64,000 nucleotides of DNA from Ktedonobacter racemifer DSM 44963. GTDB taxonomy: Bacteria; Chloroflexota; Ktedonobacteria; Ktedonobacterales; Ktedonobacteraceae. This document shows, piece by piece, positions 26,330-33,549 of the stretch; position 1 is the first letter of the stretch, and every line of letters begins with the position of its first letter. A model generated the notes under the pieces. It worked only from the letters and a program-made list of their open reading frames with translations. It had not been told where the DNA came from and ran no database searches. The stretch spans positions 1,550,001 to 1,614,000 of the forward strand of contig NZ_ADVG01000004.1 in NCBI RefSeq assembly GCF_000178855.1, given 5' to 3'. The translations under genes were made by a program, and so were the position numbers.

Positions 26330-26451
26330 CTCTGCTGGATGAGAGGAAAGAGAGCAGGGTCAGATACCTAGAACTAGCGTTCTTCTCGTTCCTCTGGTAC
26401 AATAGACGTCAGTGGATCGAGATCACGTGTATGTTCGAAGAAGGGGCAAGA

Positions 26452-28089
26452 ATGCCGAAGAAGTGTCAGGGACAACGCAAACAGAAGGAACAGCAGGAGA
26501 AGCGACCGGCGACGCCCACCTTTCTGCTGGAACTGCCCCTGGCCGTCGATGCAGGGCAAGCCGCCCGCCTGCGCGCTCATCTGGAAGCCGCTCGTCAGCT
26601 CTACAACGCCATCCTCTCCCAAGGACAACAGCGCCTGCGCCGCATGCGGTCTGACCCAGCCTGGCAAGAGGCCCGCACCCTTCCTCGCACCCACAAAGCG
26701 GAACGAGTGGCAGCCTTCTCCGCCTTGCGCAAGGCGCATGGCTTCTCCGAAGCCGCGCTACATGAAGCCGTCAAGAGGCTGCGCGTGGGCTGGATTGCCG
26801 CGCACATCGAGGCCGTGCTCGCCCAAACCCTGCCCACTCGCGCCTACCGCGCTCTCAACCGCGTCTGTCTGGGCAAGGGGAAACGGGTGCGTTTCAAGAG
26901 CCGAGGACGTGGCCTCTCCAGCATCGAGAATAAGCGCAACGATACCAGTCTCCGCTTTGTCCTGCAGCCCGCCTCTGAAGGCAACGCCGGCTATTTGCTC
27001 TGGAACGGAGACCAGTTGCCCGCCCTCATCAATTGGAAGGATGAGGTGGTGACCCATGGCTTGAGGCACCGCATCAAGTACGCCCGCCTCATCCAACGTC
27101 CCGCCAGCAGCCCCAGAGCGGCCGGAGCCGATGCACAGGGCTCTCGCTACGTCGTGCAGTTGGCCCTGGAGGGCAAGCCCCACCACAAACCCAAGCACAC
27201 GATTGGCCAGGGCATCGTTGGGGCTGACCTGGGACCCTCGACCCTGGCGCTCGTTCCCCAGCAAGGGGAGGCGAGCTTGCAGGTGTTCTGCGCGGAACTG
27301 GCTCCTGAGGCCTGTGCCATTCGCCGTTTGCAGCGGCAGATGGATCGGCAGCGGCGAGCGGGCAATCCAGAGCACTACGACGAGAAGGGGCGCGTCAAGA
27401 AACAGGGGAAGAAGCGTCTGCCCTGGAAGAACAGCAAGCGCTACCAGGCGACCCGGCGGCGCAAGGCGACCAAGGAGCGCAAGCTGGCGGCGCACCGCAA
27501 GAGCCTGCACGGCCGCAAGGTGCACGAGGTGGTCGCGCTGGGCAGGACCATCATCCTCGAAAAGGTCTCCTACAAGGCATGGCAGAAACGTTTCGGCAAG
27601 AGCGTGGGACTGCGAGCACCAGGGATGTTTGTGGAACTCCTGAGACGCACCGTTGCAAGCACGGGCGGCATCCTGGTCGAGGTTCCCACATGCACGACGG
27701 CGCTGAGCCAATGGTGCCACGGCTGTGGCAGACGGGTCAAGAAGCCGCTTTCTCAGCGCTGGCATCACTGCGAATGCGGCGTAGGACCGGTGCAACGCGA
27801 CCTGTATTCGGCCTTCCTTGCCGCCTATCTCGATCCAGCAGAACCCACTCCCTCGTGTGTCCGGTACCAGGGGTATTGGGAGGGTGCGGAAGCGCGCCTG
27901 CGGGCAGCACACGAGCGTCTAGCACAACGCGCGAGAGAGGGGCAGTCCTTGCCCCGAAGCTTTGGCATCCCCAGAGCCGGAGCGCGTCTGTCCAAAAGTC
28001 CAGGGGAACCACCACAAGAGCCAGCTTTCCTGCATCAGTGGGAAGGACTGGAAGCGTGGAACGAATCCCTGGAACCCCCAGCGCTTTAG
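26452..28089 (+). CDS. tnpB: TnpB-type RNA-guided nuclease, large (545 residues)
   Basis: An apparently intact TnpB. RuvC-I Asp is D259 (GADLGPSTLAL), RuvC-II Glu is E370 (IILEKVSYKAW) and RuvC-III Asp is D450 (VQRDLYSAFLA). A zinc finger (CHGC...CEC) lies between the last two. At 545 residues it is longer than the usual 370-450 and has about 95 residues after RuvC-III. The N-terminus is a Lys/Gln-rich tail. ATG 26452 follows AAGGGGC. It acts on DNA with a guide RNA made from the 3' end of the element, so the hairpin at 28075-28096 is probably part of that RNA. No tnpA is present. Confidence 0.88.
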   Translation: MPKKCQGQRKQKEQQEKRPATPTFLLELPLAVDAGQAARLRAHLEAARQLYNAILSQGQQRLRRMRSDPAWQEARTLPRTHKAERVAAFSALRKAHGFSEAALHEAVKRLRVGWIAAHIEAVLAQTLPTRAYRALNRVCLGKGKRVRFKSRGRGLSSIENKRNDTSLRFVLQPASEGNAGYLLWNGDQLPALINWKDEVVTHGLRHRIKYARLIQRPASSPRAAGADAQGSRYVVQLALEGKPHHKPKHTIGQGIVGADLGPSTLALVPQQGEASLQVFCAELAPEACAIRRLQRQMDRQRRAGNPEHYDEKGRVKKQGKKRLPWKNSKRYQATRRRKATKERKLAAHRKSLHGRKVHEVVALGRTIILEKVSYKAWQKRFGKSVGLRAPGMFVELLRRTVASTGGILVEVPTCTTALSQWCHGCGRRVKKPLSQRWHHCECGVGPVQRDLYSAFLAAYLDPAEPTPSCVRYQGYWEGAEARLRAAHERLAQRAREGQSLPRSFGIPRAGARLSKSPGEPPQEPAFLHQWEGLEAWNESLEPPAL

Positions 28090-28410: not shown

Positions 28411-28684
28411 TTATTTTCCCTGTTCGTCTAAGTTGAATCTAGTTACTGTCAATTTATTTTTCGTGACAGCTATACGTCCTTTATCCTCTTCGAATTCTCC
28501 ATGCCAATCCAATGAGCCGTTTAGCTCGTAGCCCCAAGAAATAATAAAATGGTCGAGTAGATACTGGAGCCATTCAATATACCCATAGAATTTATCTACA
28601 CCGGCCTCTAACTCTGCTCCATCGTCGCTTGGTATCCAATCGCAACGGCGTGTTGGTTTTCCAGGTGCTAGAGGACCAAGGTAG
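28411..28684 (-). pseudogene. C-terminal fragment of a small conserved protein
   Basis: The minus strand reads, without a start codon, about 88 residues that include CDWIPSDDGAELE, KFYGYIEWLQYLLDHF and LDWHGEFEEDKGRIAV, then stop at 28411. This is the C-terminal half of a family of about 170-residue proteins opening with MGY-TxFTG. The N-terminal half of such a protein is at 32401-32667 on the same strand. The 5' end stops where the ISL3 element begins. Function unknown. Confidence 0.7.
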
Positions 28685-28699
28685 TGTCAGAAAGACCAT

Positions 28700-30556
28700 A
28701 AAATGAATCTTACGCAACCTTGCTGATCGCAGTTGTGATATGCTGAGAGTTTGCATCGTTTTTCATGCTCTGTGGTTTCTTCAGATGAACCACCTGCTGC
28801 CCTTGCATCTTTTTCTTCTTGTCCTTTCTGTCTCGACTCGTTTTGCTCTGATAGAGCACACGAAGCTTGAGCAAATCGACTTCGGCGCGACCATACATAC
28901 TTCTTTTGGTGAGCTTAAGCCGATTCACATTTCCTTCTAAAGGACCATTGCTCCAAGGTAACGTCAATCCCGCAAGAACGGCATCTTTGTCTTGCTGCAC
29001 ACCCGTCACAAAGGACTCAAACGCTTCAAGATGGCTGGCTTTCACCGCTGCCAACCAGGCGTCAAGCTGTTTTCCAGTGCGCTTACGCACCATGTGAAGA
29101 AACATCTCCACCAGTTGGTAGGCGGTCTCAAGGTGTGGGCTCGCTTGCCTCAACTGCCGAAGGTTCTCTTGTTCTTCTTCCGCGCAAATCCTCCTGCTTG
29201 CGGAAAAAGAGCCAGGTGGCCTGTGGTGCCGAGAGAGCCAACAAGGGATTGAGCGGTTTCGTCGCTGATGGGGAACTGCTTTTGCGGGCAGGAAAGCTCA
29301 ACGCATCTACCGTCTCCAGGTAGCGATAGATGGCTCGTGGTGACCCTTTATATCCCTTTGCTCTCAGTTCTCTTTCCAGTTGTGCTCCTTGGCGACACCC
29401 TTGTTGCCAGCGTTCCAGGAGATAGGTCTTGTAGGGATCGATGAGGCTTGCTCGAGGCTTGCGGGAACCGGAATAAGGAATATCTCCCCGATCAAGCCAC
29501 TGCCGAACGGTTCGTGGTGCCATGCCCATGTGAGCCGCAATCTCAATGCTTTTCATCCCTTGCTGTTGCAGTGCCATCATCTGCTCGTAACGAGCTGTTC
29601 GCTCCGCTTGACGAGCGTGTTGTGCTCGTTTCGGAGCCGCGTGTCCTGGGATGACTTTGACGCTCAGGTGAGGGTTGCTGCCCGTCGAGGGTCTTGGCTT
29701 CTGCCTGCTCAGCACGACGCAGTTGCATCAGGCTTTGGGTCAATTGCACTGAGACACATGCAGCTAGATTCTTCACCAAATGCCAGCGGTCACGTACCTG
29801 TACAGCTTGGGGAGCCCCTTTTTGAATAGCTGACGCATATTCCGAGGAGCCATCGCGGCTGACCACCTTGATGGAGGGATGCTTGAGCAGCCAGGCGGAG
29901 ACCGTTTTGACCGAGCGGTCGGGAAGCAGGTCAATGGGCAGGCCCAATTCCAGGTCACAGATCAGGGTTCCATAGCGCAGCCTGCGCTTGCGTGCCCAGT
30001 CATCGAGACCAATAGTGTGTGGTGCTGACTGAGCCGACGGGTGTGATTGGCGAACCAGACGCAAGATCGTATCGCGACTTCCGCTGATGCCGAGTTCACT
30101 TCCTACATCCGCTCCGGCTTGGCCCCCGATTTTGAGTCCCAACTCACAAAGGGCTTTTTGCAGCCGTTTGGTGCGGCTCCGCGTGAGGGCGACAAAGCTC
30201 TGGAAGCCGTTCAACGAAGATCTTTTGCGCACAAGTACTCTTTTTACAAAAGAAACGGCGGACATGCATGATGAGGCGGATGGAGTGCCCAACGGAGGGA
30301 AGATCGCGCAACGTCCGCGTATAGCGACTTTGGAGACGCGAAGATGCGGTTCCACAGGAGGGGCAAGAGGCTGTTGGGGATGTCGTACGTAGGGTCAGGA
30401 TGATCTCCTCGGCTCCCTCTACTCCTTCCACTTCAACATTGGGAAGGTCTGGAAAAATGATCATGGGATGTTTTGGGGTCCTCAAAAAAGCTCTGAAAAA
30501 AAAGCGAAAAAATGTTCAACTTTTTGGTATACCACATTACTCACCAGCAAGGTTGG
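28700..30556 (-). mobile_element. ISL3-family insertion sequence, inactive
   Basis: Ends are related inverted repeats: TTACGCAACCTTGCTGAT near 28711-28729 and, inverted, CAGCAAGGTTG near 30545-30555 with an adjoining TACCACATT. It is occupied by one broken transposase gene. The outer part of the right end appears cut or overlapped by the DUF4253 cassette that follows. Confidence 0.65.
28710..30485 (-). pseudogene. ISL3-family transposase with three frameshifts
   Basis: Four overlapping frames together make one ISL3 transposase of about 560 residues. The N-terminus has the zinc ribbon (CPSCG, then CAQKIF). The second part carries the DDE-region IGLDDWARKRRLRYGTL and VSRDGSSEYASAI. The third has a helix-turn-helix-like TVRQWLDRG. 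The fourth ends with LPWSNGPLEGNVNRLKLTKRSMYGRA, the family's conserved C-terminal Glu region. Frame changes are near 30150-30350, 29550-29710 and 29130-29150. It cannot make an intact enzyme. Confidence 0.85.
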
Positions 30557-30559
30557 TTG

Positions 30560-30668
30560 TTACGCAAGTTTGCTGATGACAAATGTGGTAGACTGGGAGC
30601 TTGAACAATTTTTCTCTCCAACGAGAAGGTGATAACCATTTTCCCCGAACTTTTGAGCAAGAAAGAAC
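30560..30668 (+). repeat. 109-bp inverted repeat, left copy, of DUF4253 cassette
   Basis: Matches the reverse complement of 31639-31748 almost perfectly from GCTGATGACAAATGTGG to GAGCAAGAA, with one indel in a T/A run and a few outer mismatches. The outermost bases (TTACGCAA...GCTGAT) resemble the ISL3 terminal repeats next door. Confidence 0.85.
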
Positions 30669-30702
30669 TAACTTACTGAAATAAAATGCATGAGAGACCT
30701 TG

Positions 30703-31458
30703 ATGGATCAAAAAACACTTGCGGCGCTTCACCAACAGTATGACACGAGGATGTCTTCATTTCTGCCATCCGTGGCTTTTGAGGACGGCCTATCTTACCA
30801 GGGAGAGGTCCAGAGTAGAAATGACATTACAACTTGGCAGACATTGCGCAGTCTGGTCGATGTGACCGGGTACTGGCCGCTCTTGACTCATAGGTCGTTG
30901 GAAGACATCATGGAGTATCAGTCTGGAAAGAGACGTCCTCCACACGAGATCATCGATGAGGGACTACGCCTCAATGCAGAGAACTGGGTCCACCAAAGCA
31001 TCGAAGAGTATCGCTCATTTTACTATCATGATGTCCCTCGCGGTGAGTGGCCGGATAAGACCCAGGGCAAGACCACACCAAAGAACAGCTCCACGACAAA
31101 AGGGAGCGAAGCACCACGATTTGAACCCTTCATATTGCTCCCTACGACAGAAGGGTGGCGAGTTCCGGCCTATCTGAACTTCGGTGGTTGGAATGGATGC
31201 CCATATTCTCCAGCACACGTCTGTATGATGAAGCACTGGCAGGAACATTATGGAGCCGAAATCATGTTCATGGGAAGTGATACTGTTGCAATGTATGTAT
31301 CACGTCCTCCACAGGATCGAGAGAGTGCCTTGCAACTCGCTTGGGAACAGTTTGCGTACTGCTCCGATACGATCGGAGTCGCCCCAGGTATAGAGACGCT
31401 TGAAGATTTAGCTGCCAAATTGCTTAGCTCTTCAGTGTGGGGCTTCTGGTGGGACTGA
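30703..31458 (+). CDS. DUF4253 domain protein
   Basis: A 251-residue protein. The C-terminal half is a clear DUF4253 domain: GWRVPAYLNFGGWNGCPYSP, HWQEHYGAEIMFMGSD, then YVSRPP and LAWEQFAYCSDTI, ending in the typical VWGFWWD. The N-terminal 110 residues are not recognised. DUF4253 occurs widely in actinobacteria and other groups and has no established function. ATG 30703 is preferred over the adjoining TTG. It is the only gene inside a pair of ~109-bp inverted repeats, so it looks like cargo of a small mobile cassette. Confidence 0.82.
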   Translation: MDQKTLAALHQQYDTRMSSFLPSVAFEDGLSYQGEVQSRNDITTWQTLRSLVDVTGYWPLLTHRSLEDIMEYQSGKRRPPHEIIDEGLRLNAENWVHQSIEEYRSFYYHDVPRGEWPDKTQGKTTPKNSSTTKGSEAPRFEPFILLPTTEGWRVPAYLNFGGWNGCPYSPAHVCMMKHWQEHYGAEIMFMGSDTVAMYVSRPPQDRESALQLAWEQFAYCSDTIGVAPGIETLEDLAAKLLSSSVWGFWWD

Positions 31459-31638
31459 TATCGTGGATTGACATAGGTAATGGTTCCCTGGCAGCAGAAT
31501 CAATTCATCATTATTTACCCAAATCATGTCTACACCATGCTTTTACCATATGCTGTCCTATGAGGACATGCCATCGGTTTTTACGCCACTTCGCTGATTC
31601 TACATGTGATATGGTAAGAGGTTAACTTATTCATCGAA

Positions 31639-31748
31639 GTTCCTTCTTGCTCAAAAAGTTCGGGGAAAATGGTTATCACCTTCTCGTTGGAGAGAAAAAT
31701 TGTTCAAGCTCCCAGTCTACCACATTTGTCATCAGCGAGGTTGCGTAA
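31639..31748 (-). repeat. 109-bp inverted repeat, right copy, of DUF4253 cassette
   Basis: Inverted counterpart of 30560-30668. Its outer end (GAGGTTGCGTAAGAATC on the plus strand) closely matches the ISL3 left end read inverted (AAGGTTGCGTAAGATTC). Confidence 0.85.
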
Positions 31749-31871
31749 GAATCAGAAAATGCGTCAACACCTTGTTTCTAGACCAAGAATTAAGTATTCT
31801 TAGCCCGAGGGCCTGTACAGGCGATTGACAAGGACAAACATATTGAAAAACAGATAATGGAGGAAAAGCTT

Positions 31872-32285
31872 ATGTCAGAACGCCCCTCTGTAGGCGTTGG
31901 TGTGATTATCAGAAAGGGTGACCATGTCCTTCTCATGAAGCGCCAAAACTCTCATGGAGGTGGAACCTGGTCTATGCCTGGAGGCCATTTAGAGTATGGG
32001 GAATCACCAGAGGAGTGCGCCATTCGTGAAGCTGAGGAAGAGGTTGGGGTGCTGATTACTGACCTCACCTTTTGCACGATCACCAATGATATTTTTGAGA
32101 AGGAAGGAAAGCATTATGTGACCCTTTGGATGGAGGGAACCTATGCTTCTGGAGAAGCACGGGCCAAATCCGCTCGTGAGATGTCAGAGGTCGGATGGTT
32201 CTCCTGGAGTGCCTTGCCAACTCCACGTTTTCTCCCGCTAGAGCATCTGCTCTCCCAAGGATATATTCTTGGCAAAGAAGACTGA
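31872..32285 (+). CDS. NUDIX hydrolase
   Basis: A 137-residue single-domain NUDIX protein. The Nudix box starts at GGHLEYGESPEECAIREA and continues EEEVGV, with all metal-binding Glu residues present. It resembles MutT/NUDT15-like nucleotide pyrophosphatases (GTWSMPGGHLEYGES), which remove oxidised or modified nucleoside triphosphates. GGAGG lies 8 nt before ATG 31872, so an upstream in-frame ATG that contains the ribosome site is rejected. It sits just outside the DUF4253 cassette. Confidence 0.88.
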   Translation: MSERPSVGVGVIIRKGDHVLLMKRQNSHGGGTWSMPGGHLEYGESPEECAIREAEEEVGVLITDLTFCTITNDIFEKEGKHYVTLWMEGTYASGEARAKSAREMSEVGWFSWSALPTPRFLPLEHLLSQGYILGKED

Positions 32286-32329: not shown

Positions 32330-32400
32330 TTTGACCTATAAAATCGCCAAATTGTCATATTGACACATATCTCCCCCTTTCGGCGAATTTATGGGCCAAA
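32330..32400. repeat. 22-bp inverted repeat, possible small insertion remnant
   Basis: Arms 32330-32351 and 32379-32400 match at 18 of 22 positions (TTTGACCTATAAAATCGCC against the complement of GGCGAATTTATGGGCCAAA). The right arm ends exactly where the truncated gene at 32401 stops. Confidence 0.55.
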
Positions 32401-32679: not shown

Positions 32680-33237
32680 TCCTTATCTTATAGTTTTATG
32701 AGTCTGTGGAGAAAAATAGAGTGTAGTCCTGCGTAAATTTAAAGACAGAGCTTCTTCCTTGTTTTGCTCTGCCTTTTATTCTTTTTATACCCTTTTATTG
32801 TGGAAGATCGGTAGAAGTAAAGTAGTTTTATTGGTTGCTGTAGACCAGAAAATTTGTCTTTTGAAACCAGTTCATTACCTATAAATTAGGGACTCTAACC
32901 AGCTCCGTATAGCAAAGTAGAACGTCCTTGGTCGGCTCTCCATTTTGTAGTATTATAAGAAAATGTTTTTTTAGTCTACAAGCGGTTCCAGCATGTTTTC
33001 CTGTTGATTGATGTCTATTTTCTTGTCTTTTTCTCTCACATAATTCTTTATGGGTCAACATAGGGTTTGTTGCATTTACATTTATGTATCTTGAGTTTGT
33101 TCTTGGTGCTATGAATAGAAACATACGAAGTAAAAGGTTTTTGTAGTGCTTGCGCATATGAATCTCAACAGTAGTTTTTTCTTAGTGTAAAAGCATTAAA
33201 TTCAAACTTAATGCTTTTATGCAGAAAGGAGGGTTCA
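32680..33237. other. AT-rich gene-free region
   Basis: Noticeably richer in A+T than its surroundings. It contains one copy of a stem-loop repeat (32889-32941). A 12-bp perfect hairpin, TAAAAGCATTAA / TTAATGCTTTTA (33188-33219), ends 9 nt before the ribosome site of the YPYY gene. A possible frame at 32879-33157 reads through the repeat and is not credible. Confidence 0.55.
32889..32941 (+). repeat. ~54-bp stem-loop repeat, copy A
   Basis: Shares AACCAGCTCCGTATAGC and TTGGTCGGCTC with copy B at 33564-33617 (AGCCAGCTCCGTGTAGC; CTGGTCGGCTC). Each copy folds on itself imperfectly. The two flank the YPYY-repeat gene in the same orientation. Confidence 0.65.
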
Positions 33238-33549
33238 GTGAAATTCTCTACAAAGGTAGTTATGCTGACCGTGTTCAGTGGGCTGTTTGCACTGCTGCTA
33301 CTCATAGGTTCAACACAATCAGCATCAGCCGCCAGTACCACAACGACGATGCCAAGCAAGACAGCAACAGCTACCCAATACCCGTACTACTACCCATACT
33401 ACTACCCATACTACTACCCGTACTACTACCCGTACTACCGCCCGTACTACTACCCATACTATCGCCCGTATTATTACGGCTGGCGAGGCGGCTACGGTCG
33501 TGGTTTCTACGGAGGCGGCTACGGTCGCTTTGGTGGCCGCTTCCGTTAA
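33238..33549 (+). CDS. Secreted tyrosine/proline-repeat protein (YPYY repeats)
   Basis: A 103-residue exported protein. GTG 33238 is preceded by a perfect AAAGGAGG at 5-nt spacing. Residues 3-32 are a signal peptide (KFSTKVVML...LLLLIGSTQSASA). After a TTTTMPSKTATAT linker come about nine YPYY/RPYY units, then a Gly/Arg/Tyr tail (GGYGRGFYGGGYGRFGG). Such low-complexity Tyr- and Gly-rich chains are usually envelope, adhesive or condensate-forming proteins. No homologue is recognised by name. Nearby mobile DNA suggests recent arrival or local rearrangement. Confidence 0.8.
   Translation: MKFSTKVVMLTVFSGLFALLLLIGSTQSASAASTTTTMPSKTATATQYPYYYPYYYPYYYPYYYPYYRPYYYPYYRPYYYGWRGGYGRGFYGGGYGRFGGRFR

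Follow-up and report, generated by a model that had tools for sequence, protein, structure and literature searches.

A DUF4253 gene carried between ISL3-derived ends and fused to a decayed ISL3 element in Ktedonobacter racemifer

The Ktedonobacter racemifer SOSP1-21 genome contains 601 annotated transposase genes (PMC3236041). The window analysed here, a stretch of 64,000 nucleotides, corresponds to positions 1550001-1614000 of contig C7 in the ten-contig, 13,661,586-base K. racemifer assembly; coordinates given without a contig refer to the window, and comparisons cover 47 Ktedonobacteria genomes, this one counted. Within the window, a DUF4253 gene lies between two inverted repeats, with a broken ISL3-family insertion sequence on one side and a NUDIX gene on the other. 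Three further features are seen in this region. A startless, orphan C-terminal frame (LGPLAPGKPTRRCDW...RFNLDEQGK*) left of the ISL3, at 28413-28685 on the minus strand, is the remnant of a decayed gene; a TnpB-like protein is encoded on the plus strand at 26446-28086, and a related C-terminal remnant is found inside a KaiC-encoding element of C7 (L039:5771-6598); and the plus-strand frame at 33211-33549 encodes a small protein in which a YYPYYYP repeat array, periodic at 12 bp, follows a signal-like N-terminus.

The insertion sequence occupies 28705-30555 on the minus strand. Frameshifts have split its transposase into four frames, the pieces of which match Zn_ribbon_ISL3 (Pfam PF14690), DDE_Tnp_ISL3 (Pfam PF01610), and transpos_ISL3 (NCBIfam NF033550). 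The element is about 100% identical to a complete copy at C7:2342686-2344544, and its left terminus is intact; its right tip, the CGTAA at the transposase side where the DUF4253 cassette abuts, has been lost, as seen in the junction ..AAGGTTG/GTTG/TTACGCAAG.. (slashes mark the boundaries). Complete copies on C8 and C10 have inverted repeats that match at 22-23 of 23 positions and perfect 8-bp duplications. With its DDE_Tnp_ISL3 transposase, its GGCTCTT-like terminal inverted repeats, and the 8-bp duplication seen through these complete copies, the 28705-30555 element is a member of the ISL3 family. There are four copies of this cognate ISL3 in the genome, and the transposase frame is broken in all four. 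Several more distant ISL3 transposases in K. racemifer are intact, two of them in elements whose ends are similar but different (GGCTCATACGCATTTTTGCT), and an intact homologue of 592 aa is present in genome G034.

The passenger gene (30703-31458, plus strand) starts with an ATG at 30703, preceded by GAGAGACC, and encodes a 251-aa protein whose residues 144-251 match PF14062 (DUF4253) with an E value of 4.6e-33 and a score of 114 bits, well above the gathering cut-off (27). As the earlier note had proposed, it is the sole substantial gene between the repeats. The conserved part of DUF4253 is the C-terminal segment of about 110 residues that ends in W.FWWD. The gene is single copy in K. racemifer; its relatives have a patchy distribution, being present in 6 of the 47 genomes of the class (this one counted) at 31-43% identity, and a scan of genome contigs returned one relative, at 33%. 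No ISL3 end lies beside the DUF4253 gene at the relative loci examined; the stretch from G033 contains an ISL3 about 4.7 kb away. Most predicted structures of DUF4253 proteins have been reported to contain a trefoil knot, and none has been solved (PMC11184937). A sequence search of the PDB gave no credible match to the cargo (best E 0.62), and AlphaFold2, run on a two-sequence alignment, yielded a poor model (mean pLDDT 42.6).

The repeats that frame this gene form the two arms of the cassette. The left arm (30555-30668, plus strand) consists of a transposase-side ISL3 end, comprising the end motif, the leader, and the first codons; it is truncated and reads into the DUF4253 gene. The right arm (31640-31753, minus strand) is its inverted copy. 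The arms are about 110 bp long and 95% identical (the 101-nt segments 30554-30654 and 31654-31754 are 95% complementary, and positions 1-110 of 113 align at 95%); a stretch of about 79 bp is the same in both, and their differences fall mainly in the outermost 17 bp. The end motif TTACGCAANNTNGCTGATNA, with up to 3 mismatches allowed, occurs four times in the window, at 28710, 30560, 31581, and 31748; shuffled sequences contain it 0.4 times on average, and none of 100 shuffles reached four. The motif at 28710 is the left end of the neighbouring ISL3, which bears out the earlier claim that the outer ends of the repeats match that element. The true termini, however, lie 5 bp further out than had been stated, at 30555 and 31753, where the sequence starts GNNTCTTACGC...; other copies give the terminus consensus G(A/G)NTCTTACGCAA(C/G)(C/T)T(C/T)GCTGAT. 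These two ends match at 18 of 23 positions and enclose a non-transposase gene, the arrangement of two IS-type terminal inverted repeats that characterizes a mobile insertion cassette. Over their outer 60 bp or so, the arms share about 80% identity with the transposase-side ends of complete ISL3s in K. racemifer and G034, and both arms contain a reading frame starting VITIFPEL, which resembles the ISL3 transposase start MIIFPDLP. The arms are thus more than generic repeats: both derive from the transposase-proximal end of an ISL3 and extend into the first codons of its transposase. Such an arm should carry the transposase promoter, and the left arm was considered as a promoter for the cargo; a sigma-70 scan found none there.

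The right arm is part of a larger structure. A third ISL3 end, facing inward at 31576, had been overlooked in the earlier note, and together with the terminus at 31753 it delimits a complete miniature ISL3 of 178 bp (31576-31753, minus strand), with the transposase-side end running inward from 31753 and the transposase-distal end at 31576. These two IS termini match at 19 of 23 positions. Between them, in place of a transposase, there is a frame of 32 residues (VITIFPELFEQEG...RISEVA*) that joins the transposase start to the very end of the transposase, and its stop falls inside the inward-facing end at 31576, just as the C-termini of complete ISL3 transposases (ISKVA* or ISEVA*) lie within the terminal repeat. 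Because the frame connects the start of the transposase to its end inside a second ISL3 end, 31576-31753 is a mini-ISL3 that arose by internal deletion. The left arm is recognizable as a truncated, inverted copy of this 178-bp element.

A complete mini-element on one side of the gene raises the question of whether the DUF4253 gene is simply resident, with two mini-ISL3s (MITEs) having inserted by chance on either side of it and no cassette at all. ISL3 MITEs of 89-133 bp are common in the clade, and a search for the 109-bp arms elsewhere found them only at the DUF4253 locus. Yet no target duplication surrounds the mini-ISL3 itself (its flanks match at 2 of 7 positions), DUF4253 is missing from most relatives, and the neighbouring locus argues that the gene arrived there. 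The adjoining host gene, a NUDIX gene on the plus strand at 31857-32285, has orthologues in the congener G033 with a contiguous upstream site and neither DUF4253 nor ISL3 at that site. When the window flanks are joined, they align through the junction to this G033 site, strongly on the right and weakly on the left. (A pattern search did not find an exact empty site; the homologous one, which the earlier note had suggested looking for, came from a flank search.) Since the site upstream of the NUDIX orthologue is uninterrupted, the K. racemifer locus is an insertion, and a resident gene bracketed by chance is improbable. The earlier note had reckoned that repeats confined to this locus, together with relatives carrying the same gene there without them, would refute a cassette; the first half is what was found, while on the second, relatives lack the gene at the locus. 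(The NUDIX gene has a paralogue, 91% identical at the DNA level, at C9:1214707-1215125, and each of the two lies directly beside an ISL3-type passenger element.)

The 23-bp end motif is present in 21 of the 47 Ktedonobacteria genomes, where it bounds complete ISL3s, MITEs of 89-133 bp, and passenger cassettes. Most of these elements have 8-bp duplications, and several have none; the duplication consists of the seven bases outside each G...C terminus plus one shared base. Perfect 8-bp duplications flank the ISL3s in G033 and G034, as they do those on C8 and C10, an 89-bp mini-ISL3 in G033, MITEs in G023 and G026, and several cassettes. In particular, a 1150-bp cassette encoding a 322-aa GNAT acetyltransferase occupies two K. 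racemifer sites, C6:19472-20621 and C9:1213508-1214657, with perfect duplications of CAAATAAT and AATTTATG, respectively, and a 1109-bp cassette encoding a PPOX-like (PNPOx-domain) protein is found in another genus of the family (G045:C141:2560-3668) with a perfect AATTTATG duplication. In addition, genes for a KaiC-type ATPase and a receiver protein lie between ISL3-type ends in two copies, C8:2233138-2235553 and C7:2339750-2344544; the latter includes a complete-length ISL3 in tandem, 7 bp from the KaiC cassette. (Among the MITEs, those of 130-133 bp recur in G026:C1, at six sites, and in G023, G032, and G034.) Thus the other genes between ISL3-type ends, which the earlier note had proposed listing, do exist, and ISL3-type ends carry passenger genes in Ktedonobacteria.

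The nature of this sister cargo also bears on the earlier suggestion that the passenger is protective or toxin/immunity-like. A single gene on a mobile element, with a patchy distribution, might be expected of a defence or toxin/immunity module. However, PADLOC gives no defence match at E<=0.01, no solved relative is detected by sequence, no relatives were found in phages, in plasmids (at the DNA level), or in IMG/VR, and the sister cargo consists of acetyltransferase, PPOX-like, and KaiC/receiver genes. A defence or toxin/immunity role for the cargo is therefore very improbable, and the suggestion is not upheld.

The flanking sequences bear on which unit inserted. Taken alone, the ISL3, the cassette, and the mini-ISL3 each have flanks that match at only 2 of 7 positions, so the 8-bp duplication sought around the cassette is absent. 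When the ISL3 and the cassette are treated as one compound of 3,049 bp (28705-31753), the flanks ATAAAAT and AGAAAAT match at 6 of 7 positions, and the candidate 8-bp duplication, CATAAAAT on the left (28697-28704) and CAGAAAAT on the right (31753-31760), matches at 7 of 8, with one mismatch. The family is selective for ACCATAAATTCGCC-like targets, and pairing the left flank of one element with the right flank of an unrelated one gives 6 or more matches of 7 in 22 of 272 pairings (8%); given this rate of chance matches, the compound flanks support, without proving, insertion as one unit. A second compound, the KaiC cassette with its ISL3 at C7:2339750-2344544, has perfect outer CATAAATT copies, which its halves lack. 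The window compound would accordingly have inserted as one unit upstream of the NUDIX gene. The same results determine what can be said of the cassette by itself. Because no duplication brackets the cassette itself, its left tip is joined to the ISL3, and matching flanks occur only around the compound, movement of the cassette alone is unsupported, and 30555-31753, which lacks the target duplication that its sister elements have, is not classed as a proven free-standing mobile insertion cassette. The earlier reading of a non-autonomous, ISL3-ended cassette with a passenger is thus supported in part, by the sister cassettes and the G033 empty site, and not in the respect that this copy moved by itself.

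Two independent insertions could produce a similar arrangement: the cassette would have inserted first and the ISL3 beside it later, a deletion at the junction would have removed the intervening target and the tips, and a shared preference for A+T-rich targets would explain the outer flanks. Chance flank matches of at least 6/7 are indeed fairly common, the junction does show loss of the ISL3 tip, and the KaiC cassette and ISL3 at C7, 7 bp apart, illustrate such neighbours. Nevertheless, this sequence of events needs a deletion after which the target looks single again, and the left and right flanks align to one contiguous G033 site; we regard it as unlikely. Our preferred reading, which we consider probable, is that an ISL3-derived passenger cassette, with the DUF4253 gene as its cargo, is joined to a decayed ISL3, and that the resulting 3,049-bp compound occupies one target site. 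Against this reading count the mismatch in the duplication, the target selectivity of the family, the weak left-hand alignment in G033, and the broken state of every cognate transposase; moreover, the arms and the cassette occur only once, so that transposition of the DUF4253 element as such is not seen.

A dispersed intergenic motif around TGACNCATAAATTCGCCA hosts ISL3-type elements, as at 28690-28704, and an unoccupied copy lies at 32382-32396; the motif has 13 matches in the K. racemifer genome, and the reversed pattern has 0. The 21-mer TGTCAGAAAGACCATAAAATG from the left flank abuts ISL3-like ends in three genomes, including G033 and G034. The genes next to the TGACNCATAAATTCGCCA motif did not bear out the idea that it represents the end of another IS.

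Taken together, these features suggest how the compound may have formed. At each end of the cassette lies the transposase-side end of a mini-ISL3, the two copies being inverted relative to each other and the right one still a complete, internally deleted IS of 178 bp. An ISL3 transposase, supplied in trans or by the adjacent copy when it was intact, may have recognized the outermost 23-bp ends, and moved the DNA between them, with an 8-bp duplication at an A+T-rich, ACCATAAATTCGCC-like target. Decay would then have frozen the compound through transposase frameshifts, loss of the ISL3 right tip, and truncation of the left mini-element; insertion presumably preceded this decay. Trans-mobilization of the DUF4253 cassette is suggested by analogy with known cassettes of this kind, the sister GNAT cassette at its two sites giving indirect support, and the fact that no intact cognate transposase is left in the genome speaks against it here.

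The locus represents, in decayed form, an already known kind of hitch-hiking element: here an ISL3-derived passenger cassette is joined to a decayed ISL3. Like mobile insertion cassettes such as mic-qnrD and the Bacillus cereus MIC231, which has IS231 ends (PMC3913671), it is non-autonomous, has a passenger gene enclosed by inverted ends of IS type and a proposed mobilization in trans, and has sister elements with target duplications. Unlike MIC231, whose ends come from an IS4-family element, it has ISL3 ends, its 109-bp arms are copies of one IS end, and the DUF4253 copy, joined to a decayed ISL3, lacks its own duplication. ISL3 elements that carry passenger genes, such as ISPst2 (2985 bp, 2 passenger genes, 8-bp DR; PMC6305408), similarly have 24-bp ends starting GG, an 8-bp duplication, and cargo and transposase in one unit, whereas the DUF4253 gene is bounded, within the compound, by a separate pair of ISL3 ends, and the accompanying transposase is broken. 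A further parallel is offered by genes that lie between inverted MITEs: titles cited in PMC5444012 refer to blaPER-1 flanked by MITEs and to a Tn402-like integron mobilized by MITE-like structures. As far as those titles indicate, the DUF4253 gene resembles these in lying between two inverted mini-element copies, and differs in having a truncated left copy and in the family of the element, ISL3. The ISL3-derived MITEs of Ktedonobacteria (133 bp, 89 bp) share the 23-bp ends and 8-bp duplications and have no cargo.

The most familiar mobile insertion cassettes come from Bacillus (IS231) and from resistance genes. The mobile-insertion-cassette reading holds for the Ktedonobacteria family and probably for the DUF4253 locus. 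More speculatively, and with considerable doubt, single-gene cassettes of Ktedonobacteraceae (GNAT, PPOX-like, KaiC plus receiver, and DUF4253) might share a helper transposase, and a cassette and its helper ISL3 might also move as a tandem unit with a single 8-bp duplication (two cases), targeting a dispersed intergenic motif. In these very large soil genomes, the mobile-insertion-cassette solution is found with ISL3 ends, ordinary metabolic or regulatory cargo, and precise, 8-bp-duplicated sites. Consequently, ISL3-ended cassettes are a route by which single chromosomal genes, DUF4253 included, may become mobile and duplicate.
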